From assembly GCF_000744815.1 (NCBI RefSeq), contig NZ_JQMQ01000005.1, positions 2,116,055 to 2,180,054 of the forward strand: a DNA stretch of 64,000 nucleotides, given 5' to 3'. The position numbers and the translations under genes are program-made. This document shows, one piece after another, positions 27,333-37,541 of this stretch. Position 1 is the stretch's first letter. Every line of letters starts with the position of its first letter. The notes beneath the pieces were generated by a model that was given only the letters and a program-made list of their open reading frames with translations, made no database searches and had not been told where the DNA came from. Source of the DNA: Phaeacidiphilus oryzae TH49 (GTDB lineage Bacteria; Actinomycetota; Actinomycetes; Streptomycetales; Streptomycetaceae).

Positions 27333-27941
27333 CTACTTCCCGCCCGAGGACCCGGCCGGCGCGGAGGCCGCGGACGCCGGCGCGTCCCCCGCCACCGACA
27401 TGTCCAGCACATGGAGGCCGCGCCTGGGCGCGACCGCCAGGTGGTAGCGGACGCCGCCCTGGCGCAGTTCGTGACCGGTCCCGCTGCTGGCCCTGCCGAA
27501 CTCGGCGGTGAGCCAGCCGTCGACCTCGGTTCCGGCACCGCCGGGCGCGGCCGCCGCACACGCCTTCAGGAAGTCCTCGGCGGCCGCGGTGTCGGCGCCC
27601 ACGGCCTGGCAGGTGAGTTCGGCGGGGGCGGAGGGCAGGTCGCCGGCCTCCACCGCCTCGGTGATCAGCTTCCCGGTCTGGGCGCGGCCGATCCGCAGGT
27701 CCCGCCGGGTCTCGTGGCCGGTGTCGACCTTGCGGTAGGCGAGCTTCCAGCCGTGGGCGGCGAGGGCGTCCTCGAAGGACCCCTGGCTGACCCCGGTCAG
27801 CGCCGCCATCCCGTCCGAGCTGCCGGCGGCGCTGTCGCTGGAGGGTGAGCGGCCGCCCGAGCAGCCGGTGAGGACGGAGGTCAGCGCGACGGCGGCGATG
27901 AGCGCGGACGCCAGCGCGGCGGGGCGGGCACGGTTCGGCAT
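27333..27941 (-). CDS. Putative lipoprotein, coupled to the giant DUF11 protein gene
   Basis: The protein starts with a lipoprotein signal (MPNRARPAALASALIAAVAL, lipobox LTGC, Cys about residue 27) and then about 175 exported residues, partly Ser/Gly/Ala-rich at both ends. The core (FEDALAAHGWKLAYRKVDTGHETRR... and FGRASSGTGHELRQGGVRYHL) is not recognised. ATG 27941 has GGGAG eight bases upstream. A second in-frame ATG at 27980 overlaps the TGA of the giant surface-protein gene (TGATG), so translational coupling to that gene is likely whichever start is used. The coupling suggests a joint role at the cell surface. Confidence 0.75.
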   Translation of the reverse strand: MPNRARPAALASALIAAVALTSVLTGCSGGRSPSSDSAAGSSDGMAALTGVSQGSFEDALAAHGWKLAYRKVDTGHETRRDLRIGRAQTGKLITEAVEAGDLPSAPAELTCQAVGADTAAAEDFLKACAAAAPGGAGTEVDGWLTAEFGRASSGTGHELRQGGVRYHLAVAPRRGLHVLDMSVAGDAPASAASAPAGSSGGK

Positions 27942-27979
27942 GGCAGCGGCTCCCGGATAGGGGCGGATTCGAGGGGTCA

Positions 27980-30900
27980 TCAGGTCTGCTTCCGGCGCCG
28001 GAGGAAGGCGGTGAGCAGCACCCCGCCGGCGAGGATCAGGGCCAGGCCGAGCTCGGCGGCCAGGGAGACGAACCCGCCGGCGCCGGTGTGGGAGAGCTGC
28101 GGCCGGGGCCCGGCCGGGCGCGGTCCGCTCGGCGCGATCACCTTCGGCAGCGCGGAGTTCGGCTGGTTGTGGTTGTTCGACGGCCGCGGGTCGGGGGTGT
28201 CGGCGTGGACCACGGCGACGTTCTCCAGGTCCGAGCCGTCGCCGCGGTATCCGGCGGCCAGCAGGGCGGTGAACCGGTAGGCCCGCGAGGTGCCCGGCAT
28301 CAGCAGCGGATAGGTGCGGCAGACCACCGCACGGCCCTCGGCGGTGCAGCCGTCCGGCGAGGAGACGAAGCTGATGCCGTTCGGCAGCGGGTCCTTGACC
28401 ACCACGCCGTGGGCGGCGGACGGCCCGTGGTTGGTGACGGTGATCAGGTAGCCGAAGATGGTGCCGGGCCGTACGGCGTCCGCCCCGACGGTGGTCTTCC
28501 GGGTGGAGAGGTCGGCCTCGGCGCGGACCGGCACCGGGCCGCTGCTCGCCGAGTTGTTCGAAGGGTCGGGGTCCGGGGTGTCCGCGGAGACCTCGGCGCG
28601 GTTCTCCACCGAGCCGCCGTCGGCCAGGGCCGGGTCGACGTCCGCGGTCACCGTGAAGGTCCGCTCACCGCCGACCGCGAGCTCGCCGACCAGGCAGCTG
28701 AGGGTGCGGCCGGAGACCAGGCAGCCGCCGGTGTCCGAGCGGTAGGTCAGTCCGTCCCCGAGGGTGTCGGTGACCACCGCGTTCCGTGCCTCCGAGGGAC
28801 CGTTGTTGACCACCCGCACGGTGAACTCGGCGCTGGTGCCGGCGGTGGCCGAGGCCGGGCCGGTCTTGGTGATGCCGAGGTCGGCGGAGGCCACGCTGGG
28901 CGGCCATTCGACGGTGGTCTCGGTGTCGGACGGGTCCAGGCTGCCGGTGTCGCTGGTCAGCGTGGCCGTGTTGGACAGCGCGGTGCCGGGCGGCACGTCG
29001 GCGGAGAGCCGGACGGTGATCCGGTAGGTGAGTTCCTGACCCGGCGTCAGCACGCCGCCCGGCGGCACGCAGGTGATCGAGGTCCCGCTGCCGGTGCAGT
29101 CGGGGGAGTCGGCCCGGACGAAGGCGAGCCCGGGGGCGAGCGGGTCGGAGGCGACCACCCCGGTGGCCGTCGAGGGGCCGCTGTTGCCGATCGTGAGGGT
29201 GAAGGTGGACTCCGAGCCGGCCGCCGGCGCGGTCTCCGGAGCGGTCTTGGTGATCCGCAGGTGGGCGTCGGCCGCCACCGGGATCGCCCCGGTGTCCGCG
29301 GTGTTGTTGGACTCGTCCGGGTCGTGGGTGGCGGCCCCGACCGTCGCCCCGGCGTGCACCGAGTCGCCGGCGGCGAGGCCCGGATCGACCTCGGCGGTGA
29401 CCGTGATCCAGGCCTCCTGGCCGGCCCCGAGGACGCCCAGCGGGCAGCTGAGGGCCCCGGCGGCGAAGGTGCAGCCGCCGGTGTCCGACCGGTAGCCGAG
29501 GCCCGGGCCGAGCTCCGGGTGGAGCACCACGCCGTTCGCTTCGGAGGGGCCGTGGTTGGTCACGTGGAAGGTGAACTCCGCGGTGTCGCCTGCGGTGACG
29601 GTGGCCGGGCCGGTCGCGGTGACGGCCAGGTCGGCGTCGGCGCGGACCGGGATCGGGCCGGTGTCCGCGGTGTTGTCGGCGGGGTTCGGGTCCTCGGTGT
29701 CCGAGTCGGTGGTGGCCGTGTTGTGGACGGTGCTGCCCTCCGGCGCGGCCGCGTCCACCAGGGCGGTCACCGTGAACGAGGTCCGGGCGCCGGGCGCCAG
29801 GGTGCCCAGGGGGCACTCCAGCCCCGCGCCGCCCGGGGTGCAGCCGCCGGTGTCGGACTGGTGGGTGAGCCCGGCGCCGAGGGCGTCCTCCACCCGGACG
29901 TTCTGGGCGGCGGACGGCCCGTTGTTGACGACCGTGATGGTGAACTCGGCGGTGCCGCCCGCGGTCACCGAGGCCGGGCCGGTCTTGGTGACGGCCAGGT
30001 CCGCGATGGCGGCGGAGGTCGGCCAGGAGGCGTGCGAGCTGTTGTTCGCCGGGTCCGGGTCCGCGGTGGCGGAGGACGCGGTGGCGGTGTTGGTCAGCAC
30101 CGTGCCGGCCGCCAGGTCCGCGGCCACATGGACGGTGATGCGGTAGGTGAGCTCCTGGCCGGGCGCCAGGTCGCCGCCGGGCGGGGTGCAGGTGACCGTG
30201 CCGGCGGTGTCGGTGCAGTCCGCGGAGTCGGCGGAGACGAAGGTCAGGCCGGCCGTCAGCGGGTCCCTGAGCACCACCTCGTGGGCGGTGGACGGGCCCG
30301 CGTTCCCCAGCACCACGGTGAACACCGCGTCCTGGCCGGCCACCGGGGGCTGGTCCGGCGCGCTCTTGAGGACGTGGACGTCGGCCTCGGCGGTGACCGG
30401 GATCGGGCCGGTGTCGGCGGAGTTGTCGTCCGGGTTCGGGTCGGCGGTGTCCGAGGCCACGGTCGCGGTGTTGCGGACCGTGTCGGCGGAGGTCAGCCCC
30501 GGGTCCACCGTGGCCGTCACGGTGAAGGTGTGGGCGTCCCCGGCCGCGAGCGTGCCCAGCGGGCAGGTCAGCACCTGCCCGGCAGCCGTGCAGCCGCCGG
30601 TGTCCGAGACATGGCTCAACCCGGCGCCCAGGGTGTCGGTCACCCGCACGTTCTGCGCGTCCGAGGGACCCGGGTTGCTCACCGCGATCGTGAACACCGC
30701 CTCCCCGCCCGCCGTCACCGACGCCGGACCGGTCTTGGCGATCGCCAGATCCGCACCCGAGGTGGCGCCCAGCCAGTCCACGTGGGACGTGTTGTTCGAC
30801 CCGTCCGGGTCCGCAGTCGAGGAGCTCGCCGTACTGGTGTTGGAGAGGACGGTGCCCGGGGCGACGTTCGCCGCCACCCGGACGGTGATGTGGTACGTCA

Positions 30901-33900
30901 GCTCCTGCCCCGCCGCCAGATCGCCGCCGGGCGGGGTGCAGGTGACCGTGCCGGCGGTGTCGGTGCAGTCCGCCGAGTCGGCGGAGACGAAGGACAGGCC
31001 GGCCGTCAGCGGGTCCCTGAGCACCACCTCGTGGGCGGTGGCGGGTCCGGCGTTGCCCAGCACCACGGTGAACACCGCCGTCTGCCCGGCGACCGGGGCG
31101 GTGTCCGGGGCGGTCTTGTGGACGTAGAGGTCGGCCTCGGCGGTGACCGGGATGGGGCCGGTGTCCGCGGAGTTGTCGTCCGGGTTCGGGTCGGCGGTGT
31201 CCGAGGCCACGGTCGCGGTGTTGCGGACCGTGTCCGCGGAGGTCAGCCCCGGGTCCACCTTCGCCGTCACCGTGAAGGTGTGGGCGTCCCCGGCGGCCAG
31301 CGTGCCCAGCGGGCAGCTCAGCACCTGCCCGGCAGCCGTACAGCCGCCGGTGTCCGAGACATGGCTCAACCCGGCGCCCAGGGTGTCGGTCACCCGCACG
31401 TTCTGCGCGTCCGAGGGACCCGGGTTGCTCACCGCGATCGTGAACACCGCCTCCCCGCCCGCCGTCACCGACGCCGGACCGGTCTTGGCGATCGCCAGAT
31501 CCGCACCCGAGGTCGAGGTCTGCCAGTCCACGTGGGCGGTGTTGTCGGCCTCGTTCGGGTCCTCGGTGCCGCTGGTCGCGGAACTGGTGTTGGAGAGAGT
31601 GGTGCCCGGGGCGACGTTCGCCGCCACCCGGACGGTGATGTGGTAGGTCAGCTCCTGCCCCGGCGTCAACTCCCCGCCGGGAGGCAGGCACTGCACATGC
31701 CCGGCACTCTCGGAGCAGTCCGGGGAGTCGGCGGAGACGAAGCTCAGGCCGGGCGACAGCGGGTCCGTCAGCACCACGCCATGGGCGGTGGACGGCCCGG
31801 CGTTGCCGACCATGACGGTGAAGACCGCCGTCTCCCCGGCGACCGGCGCGCCGGCCGGGGCCGCCTTGCGGACGTAGACGTCGGCCAGGGCGGAGACCGG
31901 GATCGGGCCGGTGTCGGCGGAGTCGTTGTCCGGGTTCGGGTCGGCGGTGTCCGAGGCCACGGTCGCGGTGTTGCGGACCGTGTCGGCGGAGGTCAGCCCC
32001 GGGTCCACCCTGGCCGTGACGGTGAAGCTCCGCGAGTCCCCCGCCGCCAGCGTCCCGACCGGGCAGGTCAGCGTCTGCCCGGCCGCCGTGCAGCCGCCGG
32101 TGTCCGAGACATGGCTCAACCCGACGCCCAGGGCGTCGGTCACCCGCACGTTCTGCGCGTCGGAGGGGCCGTCGTTGGTCACCAGCACGGTGAAGACGGC
32201 GTCCTGACCCGCCGTCACCGTCGCCGGGCCGGTCTTGGTGATCGCCAGGTCGGCGCCCGCGGTGGAGACCGGCCAGGTCGCCGTGGCGCTGTTGTTGTCC
32301 GGCTCGGTGTCCTCGGTGCCGCTGGTCGCGGTGGCGGTGTTGGACAGCACCGTGCCGGCGGCCAGGTCCGCGGCCAGCCGGACCGTGAGGTGGTAGGTGA
32401 TCTCCTGGCCGGGTGCCAGCTCGCCGCCCGGCGGCTCGCAGGTGACCGCGCCGCCGCTGTCCGCGCAGTCCGCGGAGTCGGCCGAGTCGAAGGAGAGCCC
32501 GGGCGCCAGCGGGTCGGTGACCAGCACCCCGTACGCGGTGGAGGGGCCGGCGTTGCCGACCATGACGGTGAAGACCGCCGTCTGCCCGGCGACCGGCGCG
32601 GTGGCCGGGGCCGCCTTGCCGACGTAGACGTCGGCCTGGGCGGTGACCGGGATCGGGCCGGTGTCCGCCGAGTTGTTCGACGGGTCCGGGTCGGCGGTGT
32701 CCGCGTCCACGGTCGCGGTGTTCCGCACGGTGTCGGCCGAGGTGAGGCGGGAGTCGACGGTCGCCGTCACGGTGAAGGTGTGGGCGTCCCCGGCGGCCAG
32801 CGTGCCCAGCGGGCAGGTCAGCACCTGCCCGGCGGCCGAGCAGCCGCCGGTGTCCGAGGCGTACGCCAGACCGGCCCCGAGGGTGTCGGTGACCTGGACG
32901 TTCTGCGCGTCCGAGGGGCCGTGGTTGCTGACCGTCACGGTGAACTCGGCGGGCTCGCCGGCGGTCACCGAGGCCGGTCCGGTCTTGGCGAGGGCCAGGT
33001 CCGCGCCGGTGGCGGCGAGCGGCCAGACGACGGTGTCGGTGTTGTTGGACTGGTCGGTGTCCGGGGTCGTGGTGGTCGCGGTGACCGTGTTGGACAGCTC
33101 GGTGCCGGCGGTCAGGTCCGCGGCCACCTGGACGGTGATGTGGTAGGTCAGCTGCTGACCCGCCGTCAGTTCGCCGCCGCCGGACGGGACGCAAGTGACC
33201 GTCCCGCCGCTGTCCGCGCAGTCCGGGGAGTCGGCCGAGACGAAGGTCAGCCCTGGGGCGAGCGGGTCGGTGGCGACCACGCCGCGGGCGGTGGAGGGCC
33301 CGGAGTTGCCCACCACCAGGGTGTAGACCGCCGTCTCACCGGCCGTGGGGGCCACCGCGGGCGGGGTCTTGTGGACGTACACGTCGGCCTGGGCCTCGAC
33401 CGGGATCGGGCCGGTGTCCGCCGAGTTGTTGGCGTCCACCGGGTCCGGGGTGTCCGAGCCGACCGCCGCCGCGTTGTGGACGGTGCTGCCGGGCGTGGAG
33501 TCGGCGGCGACCCGGGCGGTCACGGTGAAGCTCGTGACGGCCCCGGCGGCCAGCGTGCCCAGCGGGCAGGTCAGACCCTGGCCTGCGGCGGAGCAGCCGC
33601 CGGTGTCCGAGACGTACGTCAGGCCGTCCCCGAGGGTGTCGGTGACCACGGTGTTCTGCGCGTCCGAGGGGCCGTGGTTGGTGACCGTGACGGTGAACTC
33701 CGCGGTCTCGCCCGCGATCGCGGAGGGCGGACCGGTCTTGGTGATGCCGAGGTCGGCGGAGGCCTCCGAGGACGGCCAGGACACGGTGGAGGTGTTGTTC
33801 GACTGGTCGGCGTCGGCGCTGGAACTGCTCGCCGTCGCGGTGTTGGTCAGCACGGTCCCGGCGGTGACCGCGGGGCCGACCCGGACGGTGACGGTGTAGG

Positions 33901-36900
33901 TCACCGCCTCACCGGGCGCCAGTACTCCCCCGGGCGGGGTGCAGGTCAGCGTCCCGCCGCTGGCGCCGCAGTCCGGCGAGTCCGCGCCGGCGAAGCTCAG
34001 GCCCGCCGCCAGCGGGTCGGTGACCACCACCCCGGTGGCCGTGGACGGGCCGTTGTTGCCGACCTTGAGGGTGAAGACGGTGTCCTCCCCCGCCACCGGG
34101 GGTACGGCCGGGGCGCCCTTGTCCACGTACACGTCGGAGTCGACCTGGACCGGGATGGGCCCGGTGTCGGCGGAATTGTTGTCCGGGACCGGGTCGTCGG
34201 TGTCGGCGGTCACCGAGGCGGTGTTGTGGACGGTGTCGGAGTCGGTCAGCGCCGGGTCGACCCCGGCGGTGACGGTGAAGACCGCCGAGTCGCCGGCGGC
34301 CAGGCTGCCCACCGGGCAGGAGAGCACCGAGCCGGCGGCGGTACAGCCGCCGGTGTCCGAGACATAGCTCAGACCGTCCCCGAGGACATCGGTGACCAGG
34401 GCGTTCTGCGCGTCCGAGGGGCCGTGGTTGGTGACCGTGACCTCGAAGACCGCGTTCCGGCCCGCGGTCACCGAGGCCGGTCCGGTCTTGGTGATCGACA
34501 GGTCCGCACCGGCGGCCGAGGCGGGCCAGGTGGCGGTGTCGTCGTTGTTGGCGGTGTCCGGGTCGGGGGTGTCGCTGGTGACCGAGGCGCTGTTGGTGAT
34601 CAGCGTCCCCGGCAGGACCGAGGGAGCCACTTCGGCCGTGACGCTGTACTGGACGGAGTCGCCGGCGGCGAGGGTGCCCGGGACGCAGGTGAGGGTCTGT
34701 CCGGCGGCGGTGCAGCCGGCCGGGGCGGCGTCCACGAAGGCCAGTTGGGGCGGGAGGACGTCGGTGACGACCACCCCGGCGGCGTCCGAGGGCCCGTTGT
34801 TGGTGGCGGTGAGGGTGAAGGTGGTGCGGTCGCCCGCGACCGGCGGGGTCTGGGAGACCGTCTTCTCCATCGCCACGTCGGCAGACGGGGTGATGGGGGT
34901 CGGCGGGGGTGCCACCGCGCTGGTGTTGTTCGACTCGTCCGGGTCCTCGGTGTCGGAGCTGACCTTGGCCGTGTTGCCGAGGTCGCTGCCGTCCCCGGTG
35001 TAGGAGGAGGCGATCTTGACGGTGAAGGTCCAGCTCCGGTCCGCGCCGGCGGCCAGGGTGGGTTCGGGGCCGCAGCTGACGATCTGCCCGCTCGCGGTGC
35101 AGCCGTCGACGGAGGAGACGAAGGAGAGGCCGGCCGGCAGGTCGTCGGTCACCAGCACGCCGCTCGCGGTGGACGGCCCGGCGTTGTGGACGGCGACCGT
35201 GTAGTCGTAGGTCTCGCCGGGGGCGATCGGGCCGGTGCGGTCGGCCTGCTTGGTGATGCTCAGGTCGGCCTGCGGCTCCAGCACGGCCACCGTGTTCGAG
35301 CAGGACGCCGCCATGCTCGCGGGGTCCCCGGCCACGCAGACCTGGTTGTCCGAGGTGACGGTGTTGGCCAGGGAGGCGTTGCCGGTGTCCGGGTCGGAGA
35401 CCCGCACGGTGTAGCCGAGAGTCACCGTGCCCGGGGAGTCCGGGGTCCCGGCCGGTACGTCCCCGGTCCAGTGCAGGGTGTGCGCGGAGGAGTCGTAGGT
35501 CGGCGGGTCGACCGAGCCGGCGGCGGAGGAGGTGGCCGTCATACCGGTCGGCGGGCCGGTGTCGTCGACGACGTCGGAGAGGTCGTCGGTGATCCCCAGC
35601 GAATCGACCTGACCGGGCGTCGGATTGCTGATCGTGATCGTGTAGTGGACGTCCTGGCCCGGTCTGGCCTCGGTCCGGTCCGCGCTCTTGGTGATGGTCA
35701 TCCCACCGGAGGTGGTGAGGCAGGCGCCGAAGTCGGAGGCGAGGGCCAGACTGGGGGTCAGATCACTGACCTGGTCCGGGCCGTTGGTGTTGCGGGCGTC
35801 CGGACAGGTCGTCGGCGTGAGGATCCCGGGCGCGGTGGTGACATCGACCGAGACCGTGCAACTCGCCGGGCCCGGCCCCACCGAGGCGCCGGAGAGCGAG
35901 ACGGTGGAGCCGGAGGCGCTGACCGTGCCGCCCTCGCAGTCCGTGGTGGCGTTGGGCGCGGGGGCGAGCGCCAGGCCGGCCGGCAGGGTGTCGGTGAACC
36001 CCATGTCGTTCTGGCCGGTGTTGCCGGCGGCTGTGGTCGCGGTGAAGGTGAGCCGGCTGGTGCCGCCGACCGGGACGGTCGAGGGGCTGAAGGCCTTGGT
36101 CAGGGTGGCCTGGGTGGTGCTGGCGAAGAGGACCGAGCCGATCTGGAAGGCGTTGGCGGTGTCGCCGGGGGTCCAGGTGCGGGTCGAGCAGTCGGTGCCG
36201 ATCGGGCTGCTGCTCGCCTGCGGCCAGGCCAGGAGCTTGTAGTAGCCGGGGCCGTCGGCGGTGAAGTCCTGGGTGCCCAGGACCGTCGAGTAGGCCACAT
36301 TGCTGTGGTGCGGGGTCACCGACAGCGAAACCGGATTGGGGGTCAGCTTGGTGGGCGAGCCGTCCTGTTTGACCCACTGGTAGTAGACCTGGTCGGTGAT
36401 CCCGCAGTCCGGGGAGGCCGTGGTGGACACGAAGTTGGGGTTGTCGGCGTCCAGCACGAAGATCGGGTTGGTCACCACTCCGGTGTCGGTGGTGACCCAG
36501 CCGAAGCCGGCCTGGCTGTTGGGGTTGGTGCCCGGCCAGGCGGTGTCGTAGGGCAGCCGCATCAGCGGGCGGCCGACGAGGGCGCAGGCGGCGAAGGCGC
36601 GCACGTCCAGCGTGAACGGGACGGTGACCGTCCCCGAGGCGAAGGTGAGCAGCGCGCTGAGGGTCACCGGGTGGCTGGGGCAGACCGGGGTGTCGAAGGC
36701 GGCGTCGCCGCGCATGGCGATGTAGAGGTGGTCGTTGGGACCGTCGTGGACGATCTGCAGGATCTGGTAGTCGTTGTTGATGCTGGGGCCGTAGACGCGG
36801 CTGCTGATCACGTCCATGATCCCGTCCCCGTTCGCGTCGTACTCGACGAGGGTCGGCAGCTGGCCGGCCGGGACGGTGACCTCCAGGTCCAGCCGCATCT

Positions 36901-37541
36901 CCGAGTCGGCGCTGTTCGGCTTGTTGGCATAGCCGAGGACGGTCACCTGCGGCGAGGTCACCGCGGTGGCCCGGGGCCGCGCGGCGGCGCGGGGCGGGCG
37001 GCGGCGCGAGGGGCGGGGATCCGCGTGGAGGGACGGGGGCGGCGCTGCGCGGGCGCGGGCCGGCGCCCGGCTTCCGGCAGACCGCACTGCCCGCCCTGGT
37101 CGGCAGCGTCAGCTCCCGCGCGCGGGGGGCGGCGCCCGCCACCTGGTACCGCACGGTCGCCACCTGCCCCGGGTGCAGCGAGCCCGCCCAGACCAGCGCT
37201 CCACCGCGAAGGGCGACCTTCCCGGCATCGGCCACCGCCCCGCCCGCCGGCCTCAGCCCCAGCGACAGTTCCCGCCCCAGCTCCTGACGGACCGTCACTC
37301 CGTCCAACCGCTGCGACCCGCGATCGGCGATCCTGACGACCGCCGTCCGAGCGGCGCCGGTCCGCGCTGCGGCACCGAGCGTCGTCGTACTCACCGACAG
37401 ACCGGGCACTCCGTGGGCGCAGTCCACCGATCCCGGCACGGCGGGCGCGGCGGGCGCGGTGGCGCCGGAGAACAACGGCAGCAGCAGGATCAGCACCAGG
37501 GAATGCGCCAGCCCCGACAGGAGTCTCGACCTGACGGGCAT
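27980..37541 (-). CDS. Giant DUF11-repeat cell-wall protein with sortase-like signal; frame broken near the N-terminus
   Basis: The protein would have about 3,186 residues. A signal peptide lies at the start (MPVRSRLLSGLAHSLVLILL...), with GGAGGG three bases before the ATG at 37541. After about 155 residues the frame is lost in a Pro/Arg-rich, GC-extreme linker (36965-37075), and coding continues in the next frame to 27980. The following 600 residues hold a calcium-loop-like DANGDGIMD and DUF7933/DUF7927-like sandwiches. From about 35270 to 28130 come some nineteen DUF11 repeats of 120-130 residues, mostly alternating type A (KTGPASVTAG...SDTGGC) and type B (VAGxxAVFT...SADSxDC). Each has one or two Cys pairs. 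The end is LSHTG, a membrane helix (LALILAGGVLLTAFL) and RRRKQT, as in LPXTG/LAXTG sortase substrates. Inferred: a long fibre or adhesin on the cell wall. The frameshift may be a sequence error or a real inactivation. Confidence 0.85.
28130..35270 (-). repeat. Tandem DUF11 coding repeats (about 375-bp units, A-B pairs of about 750 bp)
   Basis: The gene is an array of 360-390-bp units. Two-unit periods of 750 bp are clearest at 30390-30763 versus 31140-31513. The stretch 30591-30763 is identical over 173 bases to 31341-31513. Units at the edges are more divergent than those in the centre, as expected for growth by unequal crossing over. Confidence 0.9.
36965..37075 (-). other. Frameshift interval in the giant DUF11 gene
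   Basis: The signal-peptide frame reads sensibly down to SAVCRKPGAGPRPRS, and the downstream frame is sensible from TAVTSPQVTVLGYANKP. Between them one extra base (or two missing) is needed to join the two. The DNA consists of repeated GGGGC/GGCGGCG runs, a typical place for indel errors or slippage. Confidence 0.75.

Follow-up and report, generated by a model that had tools for sequence, protein, structure and literature searches.

The minus strand of the window (the whole stretch of DNA analysed, 64,000 nucleotides, from a filamentous bacterium of soil type) holds a gene whose product is probably a fibrillar-adhesin stalk of the CLIPPER/DUF11 type, anchored to the cell wall. Nineteen DUF11 units are found at 28154-35269, which agrees with the "about nineteen" of the first-pass annotation, and the description given there of a DUF11 surface fibre with a sortase-like end is borne out by these 19 units, by an LSHTG end, and by class E sortase genes in the genome. 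What is unusual in the protein is that two DUF11 subtypes alternate strictly; its length and Cys content are ordinary, since long arrays and Cys pairs are widespread. From the N to the C terminus, the order is a signal peptide, a weak DUF11-like domain, a frame change, a domain of ~280 aa, DUF7933, a D2-type domain, the 19 DUF11 units, a spacer, and the anchor. The features are as follows (window coordinates):

37090..37541, minus strand: signal peptide and DUF11-like first domain (MPVRSRLLSGL...SAVC), in a frame that differs from that of the body; ORF start at 37541
36950..37089, minus strand: Pro/Ala-rich, C-rich linker with the frame change, from the third-position GC frame plot
36113..36949, minus strand: N-terminal domain of ~280 aa, candidate tip, no Pfam match
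35813..36109, minus strand: DUF7933 domain (PF25564, 81.8 bits)
35288..35704, minus strand: fimbrial isopeptide-forming D2-type domain (TIGR04226 / DUF7927), from a profile match
34883..35269, minus strand: U1, cap type C, from clustering
34508..34882, minus strand: U2, divergent B, from clustering
29636..34507, minus strand: U3-U15, 13 units that alternate strictly, A at odd and B at even numbers, all with C-x8-C and Lys-Asp-Asn
29273..29635, minus strand: U16, A type, at which the alternation is interrupted; retains the Cys pair and has Ala/Pro/Ala in place of Lys/Asp/Asn
28886..29272, minus strand: U17, B type
28517..28885, minus strand: U18, A type
28154..28516, minus strand: U19, cap type C, from clustering
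28100..28153, minus strand: Pro-rich wall-spanning spacer, ALPKVIAPSGPRPAGPRP, from the sequence
27983..28096, minus strand: sorting signal (LSHTG, hydrophobic helix, RRRKQT), from the sequence
27333..27980, minus strand: next gene, 215 aa, lipobox LTGC; its ATG shares one base with the stop codon of the fibre gene (TGATG)

Between 27980 and 37087, the minus strand is a single open frame of 3035 codons with no internal stop and a third-position GC content (GC3) of 0.97. A plus-strand frame at 28088-37336 was considered as the gene and rejected as a shadow frame, with a third-position GC of 0.65 versus 0.97 on the minus strand. The signal-peptide ORF, whose first domain gave a weak match to DUF7927 in a Pfam profile search (residues 107-135), lies in another frame, and in the frame plot the GC3 signal hops frames inside the linker, at ~37080-37000 of the minus strand; therefore, the fibre gene is out of frame in the current assembly, and expression as a single chain may fail. 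Thus, the span 27980-37541, which had been annotated as one protein, holds for the units and the C-terminal end, but its coordinates cross a frame break. The cause may be an assembly indel or sequencing error, a real mutation, or recoding. Stalk and anchor, as parts of a fibrillar adhesin, are present in the body, and the signal peptide is present in the other frame. DUF7933, which precedes the D2-type domain, is another family predicted to form an isopeptide bond.

Searched as a whole, the protein matched PF01345 in 20 stretches (1474 bits) and TIGR01451 also in 20 (627 bits), and units scored singly (types A, B, and C, and U16) reached 74.6-97.3 bits with PF01345, for which the curated cut-off is 24.6. 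Average-linkage clustering separates subtypes A (SDTGGC) and B (SADSxDC) and gives the order C-B-ABABABABABABA-A-B-A-C for U1-U19. Identity is 55-98% within A (from U3 on), 52-77% within B (from U4 on), and ~32-45% between the two, which have 11 positions fixed differently, including a linker Pro versus Trp. A third subtype, C, forms both ends of the array (U1 and U19 are 49% identical), and this cap type resembles the units that fill the entire arrays L047-L049. An assignment of subtype A to DUF7507, prompted by the six DUF7507 stretches that the full-length protein matched, was rejected: with PF24346 (DUF7507 / CLIPPER_2), A and B units score 23-30 bits, far below their PF01345 scores (93-97 bits for A and 81 for B), and both subtypes are thus DUF11 proper.

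Across U2-U18 (BABABABABABABAABA), the type switches at 15 of the 16 junctions (p = 0.0007 by shuffling, with type labels drawn from the same sequences that were tested). A label-free measure, the period-2 contrast, which is the mean identity at offset two minus that at offsets one and three, amounts to 0.213 on raw identities, and none of 300 shuffled orders matched it. Thus, the two-subtype alternation (SDTGGC / SADSxDC) of the first-pass annotation is upheld at 15 of the 16 core junctions, but it is interrupted once, by the A-A junction of U15-U16, its ends are capped by the third type, and U2 is a divergent B. The next-highest contrast, 0.056, was found among ~60 other arrays with at least eight DUF11 units, and five more giant arrays of the same family fell below zero; the patterns with which these comparison arrays (~65 altogether) were collected were derived from subtype A, so the set is not a random sample. 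Super-repeats of period three occur in arrays L097, L098, and L144, and of period four in L090 and L086, while L047-L049 and L162-L166 are almost uniform in unit type and more distant DUF11 arrays are irregular in order. No orthologue of the A/B array was found in the contigs of 84,980 species (best identity 46%; records of the source itself or its nearest relatives may be absent from these) or among 298 genomes of the family and 198 of the order. Length had also been thought unusual, but other DUF11 arrays reach 25-37 units, and GhlA of Litorilinea aerophila, a grappling-hook-like filament seen by cryo-EM, has 49 DUF11 domains (PMC13319060). The DUF11 genes L160 and L161, in two related genomes, consist of several separate frames on one strand, which represent adjacent genes or else genes that are broken.

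DUF11 was renamed CLIPPER after the crystal structure 9IFR, in which Lys715 and Asn806 form an isopeptide bond with Asp748 (PMC12617251), and 9IFR was the sole PDB sequence match to the array (E 1.3e-4). The corresponding triad, with Asp at +33 and Asn at +88 from the Lys (+33 and +91 in 9IFR), is complete in 18 of the 19 units and had been overlooked in the first-pass annotation. The triad Lys is the only lysine of the unit in 14 of these 18, and in 56 three-unit stretches from many phyla, the alignment columns of K, D, and N vary little or not at all. These residues suggest that an isopeptide bond may form in 18 of the 19 units. U16, which also makes the sole A-A junction, has Ala, Pro, and Ala at the triad positions and no lysine at all; in 27 arrays with at least 12 units and at least 75% complete triads, the units that lack every triad residue number two, namely U16 and one unit of L077. 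The C-x8-C pair is kept in all 19 units, one step beyond the "nearly all" originally noted. That Cys in every unit would be unusual, as was also stated, does not hold, for 665 of the 1115 units in 76 other arrays have the pair (831 have the triad), as do 133 of the 143 units in five longer arrays (25-34 units) from the same family. Disulfides have also been reported alongside isopeptides in 29.7% of CLIPPER domains (PMC12617251).

The structure of an A-B pair had been proposed as a check on the Cys pairs, and an AF2 model of U9-U10-U11 (A-B-A), based on a 56-row alignment, is confident (pLDDT 97.3, pTM 0.81) and consists of ordered, all-beta, Ig-like domains. In its hairpin register, C55 faces C64 and C180 faces C189, so that the pairs are predicted to meet across the hairpin. 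The modelled fold corresponds to a CnaA-like / Ig-like beta-sandwich, and Foldseek ranks integrin alpha chains first for it (E 5e-21); a match of this type has likewise been given for a DUF11-like stalk (PMC9210967).

At the C terminus, the protein reads LSHTG-AGGFVSLAAELGLALILAGGVLLTAFL-RRRKQT, the end of motif, membrane helix, and basic tail that the first-pass annotation had described. A genome search with the PF00746 profile did not pick up this sorting signal. There is no sortase gene within the 64,000 nucleotides of the window, while seven are located elsewhere in the genome, including at least one of class F and, as looked for at the earlier suggestion, three adjacent ones of class E (C5:3.548-3.551 Mb; NF033747, 228-242 bits). 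LSHTG has Ser in place of Ala at P3 and thus falls outside the LAxTG pattern of class E. Given that SrtE1 prefers LAxTG, with Ala, yet cuts LPETG too (PMC5148588), it is plausible that a class E sortase anchors the fibre through LSHTG.

At the other end, the 280-aa domain has counterparts in 9 of 395 genomes of the family, including the source (33-36% identity; one match is marginal), and a sample of 396 genomes from the phylum yielded no further ones. Its relatives (L057-L063) are stand-alone proteins of ~310-440 aa with no DUF11 arrays and apparently no signal peptides. The AF2 model of the domain is weak (pLDDT 64.8), its Ig-like matches are also weak, with query-normalised TM-scores <0.3, and a fold assignment was consequently rejected. 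Profile and structure searches of the fibre protein found no known adhesive domain; it is the position of the 280-aa domain that suggests an adhesive tip. The lipoprotein-like gene of 215 aa next to the fibre gave no family match, and with marginal matches only in 200 genomes, it was rejected as a conserved partner, but it is possible that it is a partner of this particular fibre.

Taken as such an adhesin, the protein would be exported by its signal peptide, and each of the 19 Ig-like DUF11 beads would fold. In 18 beads, the Lys and Asn of adjacent strands would form an intramolecular isopeptide bond promoted by the Asp, and in all 19, a disulfide would staple one hairpin. A class E or other sortase would cut LSHTG and attach the chain to the peptidoglycan. 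The resulting extended chain, resistant to proteases and force and probably rigid, would keep the N-terminal domain, as the likely tip, off the cell.

From its sequence, the fibre most likely joins the known CLIPPER fibrillar-adhesin type, with an unusual two-subtype order. It shares with the CLIPPER stalks and 9IFR (PMC12617251) the tandem DUF11 Ig-like beads, a nearly equal triad spacing, a signal peptide, and a C-terminal sorting signal, but it has a C-x8-C hairpin staple where 9IFR has a CTTC motif, and its two DUF11 subtypes alternate strictly. Two related isopeptide Ig-like types also alternate in tandem in the CLIPPER / CLIPPER_2 (DUF11 / DUF7507) arrays (PMC12617251), although in the present fibre both are DUF11 proper. 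GhlA, like our protein, is a giant surface string of DUF11 beads, known in its case from cryo-EM and in ours from sequence; its filament was modelled from three chains, and the protein is reported to lack a signal peptide (PMC13319060), in contrast to the signal peptide and sortase-type end found here. The giant arrays L162-L166 of the same family (25-34 units) also have the Cys pair and the triad in most units, and several have LPxTG-like C-terminal motifs, but their units are nearly uniform (offset-1 identity 0.65-0.74), with no alternation and with other N-termini. In the G5-E stalks of SasG/Aap (PMC4458895), two kinds of domains also alternate in an extended, wall-anchored stalk; since these domains are unrelated and SasG/Aap have no covalent cross-links, the comparison concerns only how such stalks work.

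As to how the order arose, comparison of A-B pairs gives mosaic profiles of nucleotide identity: U11 is 97% identical to U13 beside divergent stretches, and identity between U12 and U14 is 97% mid-unit and goes down to 55% at the end. Such profiles fit a model in which two units were duplicated long ago and units two positions apart then exchanged patches of sequence; they do not fit one in which whole pairs were recently and cleanly duplicated. Duplication with exchange at this spacing probably gave rise to the A/B alternation, with copies of A staying like A and copies of B like B. The distance matrices of A and B (six units each) correlate with r = 0.62 (p = 0.026) in the A-B register and r = 0.39 (p = 0.16) in the B-A register, and thus the idea that the A-B pair was the duplicating unit is weakly backed by the better correlation in the A-B register, while the mosaic nature of the youngest copies goes against it. 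We lean slightly towards the alternation being a neutral by-product of recombination, in which an ancestral two-unit duplication set the register, which was then kept by gene conversion or unequal crossing-over at a spacing of two units. In addition to the mosaic profiles, the arrays with periods three and four would be expected if the size of the duplicated block varied randomly, but neutrality leaves unexplained that the A units are more alike than the B units. This reading is about how the order came into being, and it can hold together with the protein being an adhesin stalk. It is unlikely, by comparison, that A and B form an obligate structural module through complementary interfaces, in which alternation was selected for rigidity as in the G5-E stalks of SasG. 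The strict alternation unique to this array (0.213 versus at most 0.056), the 11 positions at which A and B are fixed for different residues, among them the linker Pro/Trp, and the better correlation in the A-B register could all be explained in this way; nevertheless, an A-A junction exists at U15-U16, and equally long DUF11 arrays are nearly of one type or irregular, so a long fibre can do without alternation.

U16 bears on two further possibilities. Its loss of all three triad residues, together with the frame change that cuts the signal peptide from the body, could indicate a decaying pseudogene in which U16 is drifting. Nevertheless, the 3035 codons are stop-free, GC3 is 0.97 along the whole frame, the triad is intact in 18 units and the Cys pair in all 19, and one assembly indel would account for the frame change, making decay quite improbable. 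We would give very little credence to the combined proposal that the A-B pair is a selected module that sets stiffness and that U16 is a built-in mechanical weak link; if this were true, U16 alone would unfold under load, up to its disulfide, sparing the remaining beads and the attachment to the wall.

Returning to the adhesin stalk, a single chain combines two alternating DUF11 subtypes, 18 of 19 beads predicted to be doubly cross-linked, and a bead, U16, that naturally would have no isopeptide. The fibre is thus a handy system for measuring the strength added by isopeptide bonds, disulfides, and domain order. More generally, giant DUF11 arrays can carry periods of two, three, or four units, as a record of how their genes grew.
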